From positions 1,138,005-1,202,004 of the forward strand of contig NZ_ATTH01000001.1 of NCBI RefSeq assembly GCF_000419585.1: a stretch of 64,000 bases of DNA, read 5' to 3'. The position numbers and the translations under genes are program-made. The notes under the pieces are model-generated. The model did not search any database. It saw only the letters and a program-made list of their open reading frames with translations, and had not been told where the DNA came from. This DNA comes from Salisaeta longa DSM 21114 (GTDB taxonomy: Bacteria; Bacteroidota; Rhodothermia; Rhodothermales; Salinibacteraceae). Below are positions 49,447-55,578 of this stretch, piece after piece; position 1 is the first letter of the stretch, and each line of letters begins with the position of its first letter.

Positions 49447-50259
49447 TCAGGTGCGCTGCGCCATTGCAATGGCGCGGGCTTCGTCTCGCAGGTCGCTTAG
49501 TGCCTCGCCCGGATGCGCCGCCCGCATGAAGTGCTCGCCGATGAGCACCGCGTTGATGCCCGCCTGGCGCAAGCGCACCAGCGTCTCGGGGTCGCTCAGC
49601 CCGCTCTCTGACACGCGGCCCACGTGGCGCGGCACCTCTGCAAACATGCGCAGCGAGTGGTCGATGTCGACGTCAAAAGTCTTCAGGTCGCGGTTATTAA
49701 TCCCAAGCAGCTGTATCTGATCAAAGTCGATGCGCGCGAGATCATCGAACGTATACGCCTCCACGAGGCATTGCAGGCCCAGCTCGGTAGCCTCTGCATG
49801 CAGGTCGTAGAGCTGCCCGGCGCTGAGAGCCGTAGCGATGAGGAGCACCGCATCGGCCCCAACGGCGCGGGCCTCGTGAAGCTGGTACCGGTCGACGATA
49901 AAGTCCTTGCGCAGAAGCGGTACATCGGTGACGTGCGCACGAATCCAGGCCATGTTTTGCAGCGAGCCCTGAAAGTGCGTCGGCTCGGTGAGCACGCTGA
50001 TGGCATGCGCGTCGTGCGCGGCGTACTGCTGCGCGATCTGGGCCGGACGGAAATCGGACCGGATGACGCCCTTCGAGGGCGATGCTTTTTTCACCTCGGC
50101 AATGAACGACATGCCCGACTGCTGCAGGGCCTCCACAAGCGAGAGCGGCTCCCGGTCGGCATACAGCGGGCGCTGCTTTAGCGCCTCGATGGGCGTGTCT
50201 TTCTTGCGCTGCGCGATGAGCGTGCGCGTGTCGTCAAGGATTTGGTCGAGGATGCTCAT
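49447..50259 (-). CDS. trpC: Indole-3-glycerol phosphate synthase
   Basis: A 270-residue TIM barrel that makes indole-3-glycerol phosphate from CdRP. Motifs: FIAEVKKASPSKG (catalytic Lys, about 52-64), VLTEPTHFQGS, LLRKDFIVDRYQ (catalytic Lys, about 114-125), LGINNRDLKTF and VSESGLSD, all present. It is the last gene of the minus-strand trp operon and lies 47 bases after trpD. There is no fused TrpF domain, so phosphoribosylanthranilate isomerase must be encoded elsewhere. ATG 50259. Confidence 0.97.
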   Translation of the reverse strand: MSILDQILDDTRTLIAQRKKDTPIEALKQRPLYADREPLSLVEALQQSGMSFIAEVKKASPSKGVIRSDFRPAQIAQQYAAHDAHAISVLTEPTHFQGSLQNMAWIRAHVTDVPLLRKDFIVDRYQLHEARAVGADAVLLIATALSAGQLYDLHAEATELGLQCLVEAYTFDDLARIDFDQIQLLGINNRDLKTFDVDIDHSLRMFAEVPRHVGRVSESGLSDPETLVRLRQAGINAVLIGEHFMRAAHPGEALSDLRDEARAIAMAQRT

Positions 50260-50306: not shown

Positions 50307-51341
50307 CTACGCGGAGGGCGCCGCCTGTGAGGCGTCGATGAGCGTGTGCAGGGTTTGGAGGGCCGCTCCGCTGTCGATGCTTTCGCGGGCGGCGGCGAGG
50401 GCCTCGTCAAGCGTATCAAACCGGTCGCTTACGTGCAGCGCATAGCCGGCGTTGAGCACGGCGATGTCGCGGCGCGCGCTCTGGTCCTCACCCGCTAGGA
50501 TGGCCCGCAGGATTTTTGCATTTGTCTGGGCATCGCCGCCCTTCAGCTCCTGCAGCGGCGCCCGCTTCAGGTCGTGCGTTTCGGGGGTTACCTGGCGGCT
50601 GCGGGCCACCGGGGCCTCCTCGGCCGCATCGTACTCGTAGAGCGTCGTGGCATCGGCAATGGACAGCTCGTCGAGGCCGTCGCGGCTGTGCAGCGTCACC
50701 ACGTGCTCGGCATCAAGCTGCCCCAAAATCCGCACCATGCGCTGGGCGGTCTCGTCGTTAAACGCCCCCACCAACTGACGCGTCACGCCGGCCGGGTTGC
50801 ACAGCGGCCCCAAAATGTTGAAGAACGTCCGCAGGCCCAGCGCCTTTCGCACCGGCATCACGTGCTTCATGGCCGGGTGGAAGTAGGGGGCAAACAGAAA
50901 GGCAATGCCCGCTTCGCGCAAGCAGTGCTCGACGCCCGCTTTCCCCAGGGCAATGTTAACCCCCAGGACTTCGAGCACGTCGGCCGAGCCCGATTTTGAG
51001 GAGACGGAGCGGTTGCCGTGCTTCGCCACGGTCACCCCAGCGCCTGCAGCAATGAGCGAGGCGGTGGTGGAGATGTTGAAGGTGCTCGGCCCGTCGCCGC
51101 CCGTGCCGCAGAGGTCCACCGCGTGCGGGTCGTCGCAGTCAACCGACACGGCAAACGCGCGCATCACCGACGTGAAGCCAACCAGCTCGTCCAGCGTCTC
51201 GCCGCGCGTGCGCAGCCCCATGAGGAGCGCCGCGCTGTGCTCGGGCAACGCCTCGCCCGTCATCATCTGCCGCATCACATCCTCGGCTTCGGCGCGGGTG
51301 AGCGCTTGGCCGCTGGCAATCGTTTCGAGGTACTCAGTCAC
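50307..51341 (-). CDS. trpD: Anthranilate phosphoribosyltransferase
   Basis: A 344-residue enzyme that attaches PRPP to anthranilate. The glycine-rich PRPP site DLCGTGGDGPSTFNIST (about 77-93) and KHGNRSVSSKSGSADVLE (about 106-123) are intact, as is the HPAMKHVMPVRKALGLRTFFNILGPLCNPA stretch (about 155-185). The start is GTG 51341. It is encoded between trpG and trpC with short spacers (24 and 47 bases), consistent with one transcript driven from the attenuator before trpE. No fusion to TrpG is seen. Confidence 0.97.
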   Translation of the reverse strand: MTEYLETIASGQALTRAEAEDVMRQMMTGEALPEHSAALLMGLRTRGETLDELVGFTSVMRAFAVSVDCDDPHAVDLCGTGGDGPSTFNISTTASLIAAGAGVTVAKHGNRSVSSKSGSADVLEVLGVNIALGKAGVEHCLREAGIAFLFAPYFHPAMKHVMPVRKALGLRTFFNILGPLCNPAGVTRQLVGAFNDETAQRMVRILGQLDAEHVVTLHSRDGLDELSIADATTLYEYDAAEEAPVARSRQVTPETHDLKRAPLQELKGGDAQTNAKILRAILAGEDQSARRDIAVLNAGYALHVSDRFDTLDEALAAARESIDSGAALQTLHTLIDASQAAPSA

Positions 51342-51365: not shown

Positions 51366-52073
51366 CTACGAAGGGGAGCCGGGCTCAAAGATGAGCGTCG
51401 CGGGCCCCGAGTCTTTGGTATCGGACGCGGCGGCGGGCGTTGTATCAGACGCGGGCGACGGCTCGGGCAGTGCAATGTCGTCGAGCGCATGATCGCCCAG
51501 GGGCTTGAGCTGTTCCAGCCAGTTGCCAATCATCTGGCGGCCCACCTTGGTCATCACGCTTTCGGGATGAAACTGCACCCCTTCCACCAAAAACGCGCGG
51601 TGGCGAATGCCCATGATGGTGCCTTCATCACTGCGCGCGGTGACCTCCAGGTGGGCCTGCGGGATGGTGTCCGGGTCGAGCGCCAACGAGTGGTAGCGGG
51701 TGGCCTCAAACGGTTGCGGCAGGCCCGCAAACACGCTTTGGTTGTCGTGATGTACCATGCAGGTTTTGCCGTGCATCAGCTCGGGCGCCTGCGTGACGGT
51801 GGCGCCGTACACCTCGCCAATGGCCTGGTGGCCCAGGCACACGCCCAAAATGGGAATGGCCGCGCCAAACGTTTCGATGACCGGCTCCGAGAGCCCCGCA
51901 TCGGCCGGGCGGCCGGGCCCTGGCGAAATCAGGATGCCGCGGGGCGCCAGGTCGCGGACGTCGGCCAGCGTAAAGGCGTCGTTGCGCACCACCGTTACCT
52001 CGTCGGTGTGCTCACCCACCAGGTGCACCAGATTGTACGTAAACGAGTCGTAATTGTCGATGACCAGAATCAT
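51366..52073 (-). CDS. trpG: Anthranilate synthase component II (glutamine amidotransferase)
   Basis: A 235-residue class I amidotransferase that supplies ammonia to TrpE. The N-terminal DNYDSFTYNLV, the nucleophile ILGVCLGHQAIGEVYG (Cys about 80) and the GVQFHPESVMTKVG (His-Glu, about 170-178) are intact. The last 40 residues are a Ser/Asp/Pro-rich extension without known role. Such proteins can also serve para-aminobenzoate synthase, but the operon with trpE, trpD and trpC points to tryptophan. ATG 52073. It is 50 bases after trpS and 24 bases before trpD. Confidence 0.95.
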   Translation of the reverse strand: MILVIDNYDSFTYNLVHLVGEHTDEVTVVRNDAFTLADVRDLAPRGILISPGPGRPADAGLSEPVIETFGAAIPILGVCLGHQAIGEVYGATVTQAPELMHGKTCMVHHDNQSVFAGLPQPFEATRYHSLALDPDTIPQAHLEVTARSDEGTIMGIRHRAFLVEGVQFHPESVMTKVGRQMIGNWLEQLKPLGDHALDDIALPEPSPASDTTPAAASDTKDSGPATLIFEPGSPS

Positions 52074-52123: not shown

Positions 52124-53170
52124 TTAGGACCCATCGTACGCAATGCCGGTGAGGGCACGGGCGCGGGCCATGATGGGCGCGATTTGCGCGCGGGCCTTGC
52201 GGGCGCCGTCGCGCAGCACATCCATCACGTAATCGGGACGCTGCGCCAGTTCCTTCCGGCGGGCGCGCGCCTCCGCGAAGTAGTCGTCAATGAGCGTCAG
52301 CAATTCGCCCTTGGCGTGGCCATAGCCGTAGCCGCCGGCCCGGTACTTCTGGGCAATGCTCGCCGCCGTTTCCGGATCGGCCACATGCTTGATGAGGGCA
52401 AAGACGTTACACGTGGTCGGATCTTTCGGTTCGTCGAGCGGCGTCGAGTCGGTTACGATGCTGTACACCTTGTCCTTTAGCGTTGCGCCCTCGTCAAAAA
52501 TGCCGATGGTGTTGCCGTAGCTCTTCGACATCTTTTGGCCATCGGTGCCGGGAATGACCGCCACGTCGTCCAAAATGTGGGCCTCGGGCTCCGGAAAGAG
52601 CGGATCGTCGGCCGGGGCGTAGGTGGTGTTAAACCAGCGCGCAATGTCGCGGGTCACTTCAATGTGCTGCTTCTGATCGGCCCCCACCGGCACGAGCGTA
52701 CCGCCGTAGATGAGGATATCGGCCGCCTGCAGCACCGGATAGTTGAACAAGCCCGCATTAGGCGTTAGGCCCTGCGCCACTTTGTCTTTGTACGCCACGC
52801 CCTTCTCCAGCCGGCTGGTGGGGATCAGGTTGAAGAACATCCACATCAGCTCGGTCACCTCCGGCACGTCGCTCTGCACAAAAAGGGCCGCCTCCTCCGG
52901 ATCGAAGCCGAGGGCCAGGTAATCGAGCGCCACATCGAACGTGTTGTGGCGCAGCGCCTCGGCATCCTGCACCGAGGTCATGGCGTGGTAGTTCACGATG
53001 AAGTAGAACGCATCGTGCCGCGTGTGCAGATCGATGTGTTGGCGGATGGCGCCGAAGTAGTTGCCCAGGTGGAGCTTGCCCGAGGGCTGAATGCCCGAGA
53101 CGACCACGGGCGGAAATGCCGGGGCGTCGTCAGCAGCGGCAGCGGAAGCAGCGGGGGAGGCGTCAGACAT
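52124..53170 (-). CDS. trpS: Tryptophanyl-tRNA synthetase
   Basis: A 348-residue class I synthetase that charges tRNA-Trp. It has the HIGH-like motif GIQPSGKLHLGNYFGAI (about 26-42) and the KMSKS loop GTDGQKMSKSYGNTI (about 205-219), plus the VGADQKQHIEVTRDIA stretch that recognises tryptophan. It is unusual to find trpS inside a tryptophan biosynthesis operon; here it lies between trpE and trpG, so its amount should follow the same attenuation as the biosynthetic enzymes. ATG 53170 was chosen before the Ala/Asp-rich N-terminus. Confidence 0.96.
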   Translation of the reverse strand: MSDASPAASAAAADDAPAFPPVVVSGIQPSGKLHLGNYFGAIRQHIDLHTRHDAFYFIVNYHAMTSVQDAEALRHNTFDVALDYLALGFDPEEAALFVQSDVPEVTELMWMFFNLIPTSRLEKGVAYKDKVAQGLTPNAGLFNYPVLQAADILIYGGTLVPVGADQKQHIEVTRDIARWFNTTYAPADDPLFPEPEAHILDDVAVIPGTDGQKMSKSYGNTIGIFDEGATLKDKVYSIVTDSTPLDEPKDPTTCNVFALIKHVADPETAASIAQKYRAGGYGYGHAKGELLTLIDDYFAEARARRKELAQRPDYVMDVLRDGARKARAQIAPIMARARALTGIAYDGS

Positions 53171-53211
53171 ACAAACAGGGGAATGCAACGAATGAATGGA
53201 AAACGAGGCGG

Positions 53212-53679
53212 TTAGCGGCTCGTCATTTTACGCAGCACCTGCAGGCGTTCGGCGCTGTTGCGCTTTACGACCTCCAGGATGGCGCGGGTGCGAATTTGAT
53301 GGTTGATGTCGTCGAGCTCGTCGCGCAGCCGCTCCTGAAACGCCTGCTCTTGGTCTTTGAGCTGCAAGAGCATGTCGGCCGGATCGTCGCCCAGCGAGAT
53401 GCTGCCCCGCGGAATGTCGGTGCCGTTGTACGCCACGCCGCCGCAGCTTAGCACCGTCTCCGAGAGCTTGCCCACATCGGCGCGCGCGGTCTTTTGCAGC
53501 GCCCCGAGGCCGTCGGTCACGTGCTCGTTGGGGTGCTCCGCCACCACGTAGCCGTAGGCCCGGTTGAGGCGGATGTGGGCCTCGATGATCGGATTCAGCC
53601 GCTCCACCGTCTCCTCGCGGGTGATGGTTTTGCCAGCCCATCCGCGGTTTAGCAGAACACTCTTGATAGGATTCGCCAT
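53212..53679 (-). CDS. Unknown helical protein inside the trp operon
   Basis: A 155-residue protein between trpE and trpS. It looks all-helical, with four likely helices: LNPIIEAHIRLNRAYGYVVAEH (about 27-48), ADVGKLSETVLSCGG (about 67-81), DPADMLLQLKDQEQAFQERL (about 99-118) and RTRAILEVVKRNSAERLQVL (about 130-149). This resembles a ferritin-like four-helix bundle in length, but no obvious metal-ligand set is seen. I do not recognise the family. The position (90 bases after trpE, 41 before trpS) suggests co-expression with the tryptophan genes. ATG 53679 was chosen; another frame on the same strand is a shadow. Confidence 0.6.
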   Translation of the reverse strand: MANPIKSVLLNRGWAGKTITREETVERLNPIIEAHIRLNRAYGYVVAEHPNEHVTDGLGALQKTARADVGKLSETVLSCGGVAYNGTDIPRGSISLGDDPADMLLQLKDQEQAFQERLRDELDDINHQIRTRAILEVVKRNSAERLQVLRKMTSR

Positions 53680-53769
53680 AACAGAAGCAGGTTGAAAAGG
53701 GTGCATGCACGAAGGTGTGACGAGCAGGGGGCGCGATTGTGCCTCACGCCGGGGCGGGGCGGCAGCGGC

Positions 53770-55278
53770 CTACAGGAGTCCTTCGGCCGCCACGTGCAGC
53801 GCCTTACGCAGCGCCGCGGCCTTGTTGCGGGTTTCTTCGTACTCGGCCGTGGGCTCGCTATCGGCCACGATGCCCGCGCCGGCCTGAATGTACGCCGTCT
53901 GGTTGTGGGTGAGCATCGTGCGGATGGCAATGCACGTGTCGAGCGATCCATCGAAGTTGATATAGCCCACCGCACCGGCGTAGATGCCCCGCTTGGTCGG
54001 CTCCATCGCGTCAATGATTTCCATGGCGCGCACCTTGGGCGCACCGCTTACGGTACCGGCCGGAAAGCATGCCGCCAGCACATCCAGCGCGCCGTGCGCC
54101 GCGTCAACCTGCCCCACCACCGACGACACAATGTGCATGACGTGCGAGTACTGCTCGATGTAGGCGTAGCGGTCCACCTCCACCGACCCAAACCGGCTCA
54201 CGCGCCCCAGGTCGTTGCGGCCCAGGTCCACAAGCATCAGGTGCTCGGCCCGCTCTTTGGGATCGTTCAGGAGCTCCTCTGCCAGGGCAACGTCTTCTTC
54301 CGACGTCTCGCCGCGCGGGCGCGTCCCCGCAATGGGCAGCACCTCGGCCTGCCCGTCCTCGACGCGCACAAGCACTTCGGGCGACGAGCCGACCAGCGCG
54401 AACGGCCCAAATTCCATGTAGAACAGGTACGGCGACGGGTTGACCTGCCGCAGCGCGCGGTACAGGTTGATGCGGTCGCCCGAGAACGACGTTTTAAACC
54501 GCTGCGAAAGAACCACCTGAAAGATGTCGCCATCGGTGATGTGCTGCTTGGCCGCGCGCACCGCCGACTCAAAATCGTCTTGCGCAAAGGTCGACGAGAG
54601 ATCTTCGGCGGGCAGATCGACCGGTGCCGGGGGCGGCGGGGTGCGCTTGAGGTCGGCTTCCAGTTGCTCGAGGCGCGCGTGGGCATCGTCGTAAGCCGCG
54701 CGCAGGTCGCTCTCGGGCGTGAGGAACGTCTGCGCCACAAGCATCAACTGGTTGCGCACATGATCGAACGCAGCCACGGTGTCGTAGAACGCCCAGGTGG
54801 CATCCGGAAGCTTCAGGTCGTCGGTGGGCACGTCGGGCAGGTGCTCAATGCAGCGCACCGTGTCGTAGCCCATGTAGCCCACGGCGCCGCCCGTAAGGCG
54901 CGGCAGCTCGGCAACCGCCACTTCGTGGTACCGGTCGATAAGGCGCTGCATGACGGCAAAGATGGTACCGTCGGTCGCGTCCTCGGGCAGGGGCGCGTCG
55001 GGCGTGCGGTATTCCTTAACGTGCACGTCGTGGCCGTTGTCGGTGGCCCACACGAGGCGGTACGGGTTGCGCCCCAAGAAGGAGTAGCGCGCCAGCTTTT
55101 TGCCGCCCTCCACGCTTTCCAGTAGAAAGGTGTGCGAGGCGTCCTCACGAAGCGCCAGCACGGCGGTTACAGGCGTAAGCAAGTCGGCGCTGCGGCGTAC
55201 GTGCACCGGCACGATGCACCGCTCATGGCCCTGTTCGAAGGCGCGCGTCGCGTGGTCTCGGAAGTCGTCAAACGTCAT
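53770..55278 (-). CDS. trpE: Anthranilate synthase component I
   Basis: A 502-residue chorismate-using enzyme making anthranilate. It has the tryptophan-feedback motif LLESVEGGKKLARYSFLG near residue 50, the catalytic domain strings SSPEVLVRVEDG, PIAGTRPRGET (about 320), LMLVDLGRNDLGRVS, HVMHIVSSV, and FPAGTVSGAPKVRAMEIID (about 415-433), and the terminal GAGIVADSEPTAEYEET. All residues expected for the Mg-dependent active site are present, and the LLES region predicts allosteric inhibition by tryptophan, adding to the leader attenuation. ATG 55278 was chosen; it lies 12 bases after the T-tract of the attenuator. First gene of the operon after the leader. Confidence 0.97.
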   Translation of the reverse strand: MTFDDFRDHATRAFEQGHERCIVPVHVRRSADLLTPVTAVLALREDASHTFLLESVEGGKKLARYSFLGRNPYRLVWATDNGHDVHVKEYRTPDAPLPEDATDGTIFAVMQRLIDRYHEVAVAELPRLTGGAVGYMGYDTVRCIEHLPDVPTDDLKLPDATWAFYDTVAAFDHVRNQLMLVAQTFLTPESDLRAAYDDAHARLEQLEADLKRTPPPPAPVDLPAEDLSSTFAQDDFESAVRAAKQHITDGDIFQVVLSQRFKTSFSGDRINLYRALRQVNPSPYLFYMEFGPFALVGSSPEVLVRVEDGQAEVLPIAGTRPRGETSEEDVALAEELLNDPKERAEHLMLVDLGRNDLGRVSRFGSVEVDRYAYIEQYSHVMHIVSSVVGQVDAAHGALDVLAACFPAGTVSGAPKVRAMEIIDAMEPTKRGIYAGAVGYINFDGSLDTCIAIRTMLTHNQTAYIQAGAGIVADSEPTAEYEETRNKAAALRKALHVAAEGLL

Positions 55279-55290
55279 AGGCGTGGAGGA

Positions 55291-55327
55291 AAAATAAAAA
55301 CCCACTGCGTCGGCGGGAGGCAGCGGG
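55291..55327 (-). terminator. trp attenuator terminator
   Basis: Read on the minus strand, CCCGCTGC (55327-55320) pairs with GCAGTGGG (55308-55301) with one G-U and an 11-base loop, then TTTTTATTTT (55300-55291). It is a textbook intrinsic terminator sitting between the leader ORF and trpE, 12 bases before trpE's start, so it can stop transcription before the operon. Confidence 0.85.
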
Positions 55328-55407
55328 CAGGCGGTAGACGATATGCGCGAAATTGCTCAACGAAACGTCGCAAATGCGCAGCAGCGGCTGCCCCTCAGGG
55401 ATGAGGG
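55315..55407 (-). promoter_or_regulatory. trpL: trp attenuator antiterminator/pause segments
   Basis: Three mutually exclusive pairings can be drawn on the minus strand. Segment 1 CCCTCA (55407-55402) with TGAGGG (55397-55392) forms a pause hairpin directly after the Trp codons. Segment 2 GAGGGGCAGC (55396-55387) with segment 3 GCTGCCTCCC (55324-55315) forms the antiterminator in 9 of 10 positions. Segment 3 with the next bases forms the terminator. Stalling at Trp codons would free segment 2. Confidence 0.7.
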
Positions 55408-55443
55408 CCGCCAACGCCACCATGTCGCAAATTGAGGACGCAT
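55357..55443 (-). CDS. trpL: trp operon leader peptide
   Basis: A 28-codon frame on the minus strand (ATG 55443, TGA 55359-55357). Codons 8, 9 and 11 are Trp (TGG at 55422-55420, 55419-55417, 55413-55411), so the peptide reads MRPQFATWWRWR followed by a Ser/Arg/Cys-rich end. Three Trp in four codons is far above expectation in a protein of this size. It is followed by the alternative hairpins and a terminator before trpE, the classical ribosome-mediated attenuation layout: at low charged tRNA-Trp the ribosome stalls on these codons, exposing the antiterminator. A possible TTGCGC/TAGCAT promoter with 17-base spacing lies at 55481-55453, but it would make a very short leader before the ATG, so its role is unsure. 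Confidence 0.75.
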   Translation of the reverse strand: MRPQFATWWRWRPSSLRGSRCCAFATFR

Positions 55444-55578
55444 AACAGGTGTATGCTACGCACCACAGCGAAAAGGCGCAAGACGCTCGCCCTTGAAAAG
55501 CCTGTAGAGACTGCATGCGCTACGGCACGATGCAACCCATTGGCAACGCAGAATCACCATGACAGCCCAGAGGTTGGG
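55444..55578 (-). other. Region upstream of trpL
   Basis: About 135 bases before the leader and next to the MITE-like element. It presumably contains the trp promoter on the minus strand; only the weak TTGCGC/TAGCAT candidate (55481-55453) was seen. Confidence 0.3.

Follow-up and report, generated by a model that had tools for sequence, protein, structure and literature searches.

A probable ribosome-mediated trp attenuator with a predicted leaderless start in Salisaeta longa and related bacteria

How a trp gene cluster is regulated when a short, tryptophan-rich open reading frame and a terminator-like hairpin precede its first gene is the question raised by this locus. In the window (the whole 64,000-nucleotide stretch of Salisaeta longa DNA that was analysed) the minus strand carries trpE (anthranilate synthase component I, 53770..55278, TIGR00564 over cut-off), followed by orfX (53212..53706), trpS (tryptophanyl-tRNA synthetase, 52124..53188, TIGR00233 over cut-off), trpG (anthranilate synthase component II, 51366..52073), trpD (anthranilate phosphoribosyltransferase, 50307..51341) and trpC (indole-3-glycerol-phosphate synthase, 49447..50259), the last four confirmed by both Pfam and NCBIfam. 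These genes are separated by gaps of 23-63 nt, and the order trpE-X-trpS-trpG-trpD-trpC is conserved in relatives. The original prediction had included trpS in the cluster, and it does lie between trpE and trpG; the conserved order suggests that trpS may be co-transcribed and co-regulated with the trp genes. The product of orfX (164 aa) is a conserved protein of the cluster, and almost every relative has it between trpE and trpS, with 33-55% identity and an HQMRTRAIL motif. The window copy has no Pfam family match over the cut-off and only weak DUF2383/ferritin matches, and AlphaFold (pLDDT 92) models it as a Dps/ferritin-like four-helix bundle.

The leader open reading frame, trpL (55357..55443, minus strand), runs from an ATG at 55443-55441 to a TGA at 55359-55357, 78 nt upstream of trpE. 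It comprises 28 codons (MRPQFATWWRWRPSSLRGSRCCAFATFR) and has homologous leaders in relatives, in which its tryptophan codons Trp8-Trp9 (55417..55422) and Trp11 (55411..55413) are kept. A short reading frame with clustered Trp codons is thus found ahead of the first trp gene, as expected of a ribosome-mediated trp attenuator. The sequence TGGTGGNNNTGG occurs at 148 sites in the 3.4 Mb genome, which by simple arithmetic gives a chance of about 0.4% per 200-nt stretch of one strand, and block-shuffling the region upstream of trpE in the window yields a short Trp-pair reading frame in 4% of cases.

The leader RNA contains the further elements of an attenuator. The 1:2 (pause) hairpin has the core CCCUCA-UCCC-UGAGGG (55392..55407, minus strand), with arms CCCUCA at 55407-55402 and UGAGGG at 55397-55392, and is lengthened by outer pairs on folding. 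The intrinsic terminator (3:4; 55290..55328, minus strand), recognised from sequence, folding and conservation, consists of a strong stem-loop, GCCCGCTGC..GCAGTGGGT (55328-55301, -16.7 kcal/mol), and the U-tract TTTTTATTTTT (55300-55290); the trpE ATG at 55278 begins 11 nt beyond, so that an intrinsic terminator separates the leader from the first gene, as in known attenuators. With a ribosome on Trp11, the folding model pairs region 2, the 5' strand of the antiterminator (GGGGCAGC, 55394-55387), with region 3, its 3' strand (GCUGCCUC, 55324-55317), which overlaps both stem and loop of the terminator. The 28-codon leader with its Trp codons, the pause hairpin and a terminator shortly before trpE had all been described in the original prediction, and sequence and coordinates agree with our reading. 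The antiterminator alternative that it proposed fared less evenly: folding predicts the same pairing, but in this genome alone dinucleotide shuffles pair regions 2 and 3 as well as the real sequence does (p = 0.36), a consequence of the high GC content of the region. The homologous antiterminator register is degenerate in the window and pairs poorly, the shifted register given above being predicted instead, and the window sequence has drifted. The whole-leader fold is modestly better than shuffles (z = -1.85). With a weak overall fold and a chance-level duplex in this genome, the case therefore rests on relatives.

A trpE-like match was present in all 114 genomes of the order, and about 88 upstream regions were read. 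Of 87 regions upstream of trpE, 57 contain a short reading frame with paired Trp codons, where block shuffles would give 2.2, and a terminator nearly always lies between this reading frame and trpE. Leaders with a Trp cluster and a strong terminator upstream of trpE occur in 11 families of the order, for example MKAATLNTSQNWWLWWPSSRVWSPCCV (L005), MRHVAYHSAHYFGWWWFSPAAVGRARA (L027) and MTNTNAHTTSRNNWWWHLSDG (L046), and the Trp codons are the most conserved feature of the leader. Wider sampling found Trp-cluster leaders in 20 of 20 further regions of the class (L170-L189) and in about 13 of 20 of the phylum (L190-L209), MHNNWWWHGQTNLAVESL and MKNRNHWWWWRSVIPVISVIT being examples from these samples. 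We set aside the automatic leader calls that were missing or doubtful (L022, L024, L026, L048, L079, L089 and L092).

Some genera of the order have lost the leader, often with trpE right behind another gene or away from the cluster. Regions without a Trp leader were observed in family f3 (L028-L030, L035, L038, L044, L045, L047, L053 and L056), in f13 (L034, L043, L063, L069, L075 and L083), where several genomes have trpE immediately behind another coding sequence, and in f14 (L072, L076 and L081), where trpE has no trpS-G-D-C cluster nearby.

In an alignment of 18 leaders from the window's own family, pairing amounts to 99.4% in the terminator stem, with 5 covarying pairs, and to 79.2% in the antiterminator, with 7; none of 500 shuffles reached the observed pairing, double-change or covariation values. 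In this family region 2 reads CGGGUC..GAGCCC and region 3 GGGCUC..GACCCG, a mutually exclusive antiterminator at the family level. Of 52 leaders across families, 33 have a region 2/region 3 duplex that outperforms shuffles at p<0.05 (Fisher on family medians 5e-10), per-species statistics not being independent since the species share ancestry. The alignment with relatives that had been proposed as a check on conserved Trp codons and stems thus supports the original prediction, with 11 families and covarying stems. A covariance model of the family leader finds one strong site per genome, at trp, and recovers the leader (MNRSTLRTWRFWWWPG...) of a genome left out of model building (G052, E 6.5e-14). 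Elsewhere in the genome it yields only weak, partial and mostly terminator-like matches, and we saw no further attenuator there ahead of trpF-trpB-trpA, hisG or the aspartokinase/homoserine dehydrogenase gene. As a separate observation, the only IlvB-type (TIGR00118) match in this genome (G000:C1:3170470-3170946; L211) falls far below the cut-off, and this assembly may lack acetolactate synthase or carry a divergent one.

The relationship between ribosome position and hairpin choice was modelled by hiding the RNA to 12 nt past the A-site codon, folding the remainder to the terminator loop and reading out how often region 3 pairs upstream. In this folding model upstream pairing of region 3 is high as long as the ribosome has not moved beyond the Trp codons and declines directly afterwards; in 39 of 52 leaders the steepest drop comes no more than 3 codons from the last Trp, whereas the null gave a mean of 17.3 and a maximum of 29 in 5000 draws. 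With the ribosome on the three Trp codons of the window itself, the modelled values are 0.65, 0.63 and 0.81, and six to ten codons past the last of them they are below 0.2; over a few later codons pairing recovers to 0.5-0.6, and at the stop codon it is low. In several family leaders there is overlap between region 1 and the Trp codons (GGCUCUGG), and region 1 is similar to region 3; a ribosome on the Trp codons would therefore mask region 1. In many leaders antiterminator pairing is also high in the ribosome-free state, and the equilibrium folding used here therefore fails to explain the untranslated state. As modelled, the position of the ribosome on the Trp codons would decide which hairpin forms.

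Taken with the conserved Trp codons and covarying stems, this supports the classical plan put forward in the original prediction, and the element in the window is almost certainly a ribosome-mediated transcription attenuator of the trp operon that senses charged tRNA-Trp. Transcription would begin with the leader ATG or a few nucleotides ahead of it, and the ribosome would initiate at this ATG without a Shine-Dalgarno (SD) sequence. When charged tRNA-Trp is scarce the ribosome would stall on Trp8, Trp9 or Trp11 and cover region 1, leaving region 2 (55394-55387) to pair with region 3 (55324-55317); the terminator would be blocked and the polymerase would continue into trpE-X-trpS-trpG-trpD-trpC. 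When Trp-tRNA is plentiful the ribosome would translate across region 2 and reach the stop codon, leaving region 3 free; the terminator (55328-55290) would form and transcription would end 11 nt before trpE.

The leaderless start is predicted from the promoter, whose position, together with the likely leaderless start, the original prediction had missed. A scan of the 60 nt upstream of 83 leaders detected sigma-70-like promoters of the TTGNNN-17-TANNNT type (mean score 9.5, against 4.9 in shuffles), with a -35/-10 spacing of mostly 17 nt. In the window a -35-like hexamer TTGCGC (55476..55481, minus strand), at the position of TTGACN/TTGCNN in relatives, is followed after 17 nt by a -10-like hexamer TAGCAT (55453..55458, minus strand), 9 nt before the leader ATG; the promoter score of 7.0 is among the weaker ones. 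When the 5'-most in-frame start codon is taken as the leader start, the -10 ends 6-10 nt before it in 75 of 83 leaders, which by the usual distance from -10 to transcription start implies a 5' UTR of 0-4 nt, and a promoter scoring at least 7 is so placed at only 1 of 179 other gene starts in the same sequences. An SD-like motif was found in none of the 83 leaders. Given this promoter position and the lack of SD motifs, we predict that the leader is leaderless or nearly so, with transcription starting at or just before the leader ATG and a 5' UTR of about 0-3 nt in the window; this is likely to be the most interesting property of the attenuator. Leaderless mRNAs are rare in the Bacteroidetes that have been studied, with about 3.7% of 5' UTRs under 10 nt in B. 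thetaiotaomicron (PMC7366714) and 5.5% leaderless mRNAs in F. psychrophilum (PMC9723704), which would favour a real attenuator served by a promoter farther upstream and a conventional 5' UTR. Against this stand the promoter placement, the control gene starts and the absence of SD motifs just described, and we regard a conventional 5' UTR as unlikely. Lack of SD sequences is already known in Bacteroidetes, Rhodothermus and Salinibacter included (PMC3155529). An AT-rich conserved stretch lies upstream of the -35 in L004-L016 (AATTTCAAACC in the window's family; about 55500-55490 in the window), and may represent an UP element or protein site.

Such a site would suit control mainly at initiation by a TrpR-like repressor, with the leader adding little, and attenuation and repression do coexist in E. 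coli. However, the Trp_repressor family has no match in 27 family genomes, the E. coli control being positive, and no operator was identified, so that this explanation is quite improbable. It is highly unlikely that the leader works mainly by translation coupling or reinitiation into trpE rather than by transcription termination. The window terminator is only 11 nt from trpE, which has no obvious SD; however, the stem and U-tract form a full intrinsic terminator whose pairing is conserved, the distance from U-tract to trpE ranges from about 7 to >100 nt among relatives, and the leader stop codon in the window lies well upstream of trpE. A constitutive terminator or an unrelated RNA switch (T-box, TRAP-type or riboswitch) beside a coincidental Trp-rich reading frame, to which the chance-level antiterminator of the window and the strong divergence of leader sequences between families might point, is least credible of all in view of the conserved Trp codons, their excess over shuffles, the covarying family antiterminator, the lack of any Rfam match (T-box included) at the gathering cut-off or down to E 10, and the lack of a TRAP gene (mtrB) in 27 family genomes.

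In E. coli the trpL reading frame ends between regions 1 and 2, is preceded by a 5' UTR and an SD sequence, and is accompanied by a TrpR operator. The attenuator favoured here resembles that of E. coli trpL-trpEDCBA (Yanofsky) in its leader peptide with clustered Trp codons, its 1:2, 2:3 and 3:4 hairpins and its terminator before trpE. It differs in that the window reading frame runs through region 2, lacks an SD and has a start predicted at the 5' end of the RNA; in addition, trpR was not found in 27 family genomes, and trpS is part of the gene cluster. A leaderless start like the one predicted here is known for trpL of Sinorhizobium meliloti (rnTrpL/peTrpL), where the attenuator RNA begins with the trpL ATG and there is no repression of transcription (PMC7298713); however, that system precedes an alphaproteobacterial trpE(G), and its 14-aa peptide has functions in trans. 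Within the Bacteroidetes in the broad sense, there are clues for leader-peptide attenuation upstream of amino-acid operons in Flavobacterium psychrophilum (PMC9723704), although the passages found name neither trp, nor this order, nor leaderless leaders. The Corynebacterium glutamicum ilvBNC leader, to judge from a title cited in PMC10272879, is likewise an attenuation leader translated without a ribosome binding site, but concerns branched-chain amino acids in the Actinobacteria. According to Naville and Gautheret 2010 (PMC2965389), leader-peptide systems were known only in Proteobacteria and Actinobacteria before their own Firmicutes case, and a literature search of incomplete coverage found no paper on trp attenuation in this order.

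The principle is textbook knowledge, and what is added is its conservation across a little-studied bacterial group: the mechanism is extended to a whole order, and probably to the phylum, where translation rarely uses SD sequences. On balance we lean towards an old, leaderless or nearly leaderless trp attenuator across much of the Bacteroidota that in this order would also control synthesis of TrpS. Tryptophanyl-tRNA synthetase would then be controlled by the charging state that it sets, a feedback. If the leader is indeed leaderless, the attenuation decision would depend on initiation at the very 5' end of the RNA, and the locus would offer a natural system for how ribosomes keep step with the polymerase without SD sequences.

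A variation in the leader peptide is observed in families f5, f10 and f11 (L020, L025, L027, L031, L036, L042 and L050), whereby Phe/Tyr and His codons occur just ahead of the Trp run (HYFGWWWF, FFGFWWWSS). It is possible that these codons confer a secondary sensitivity to other amino acids.
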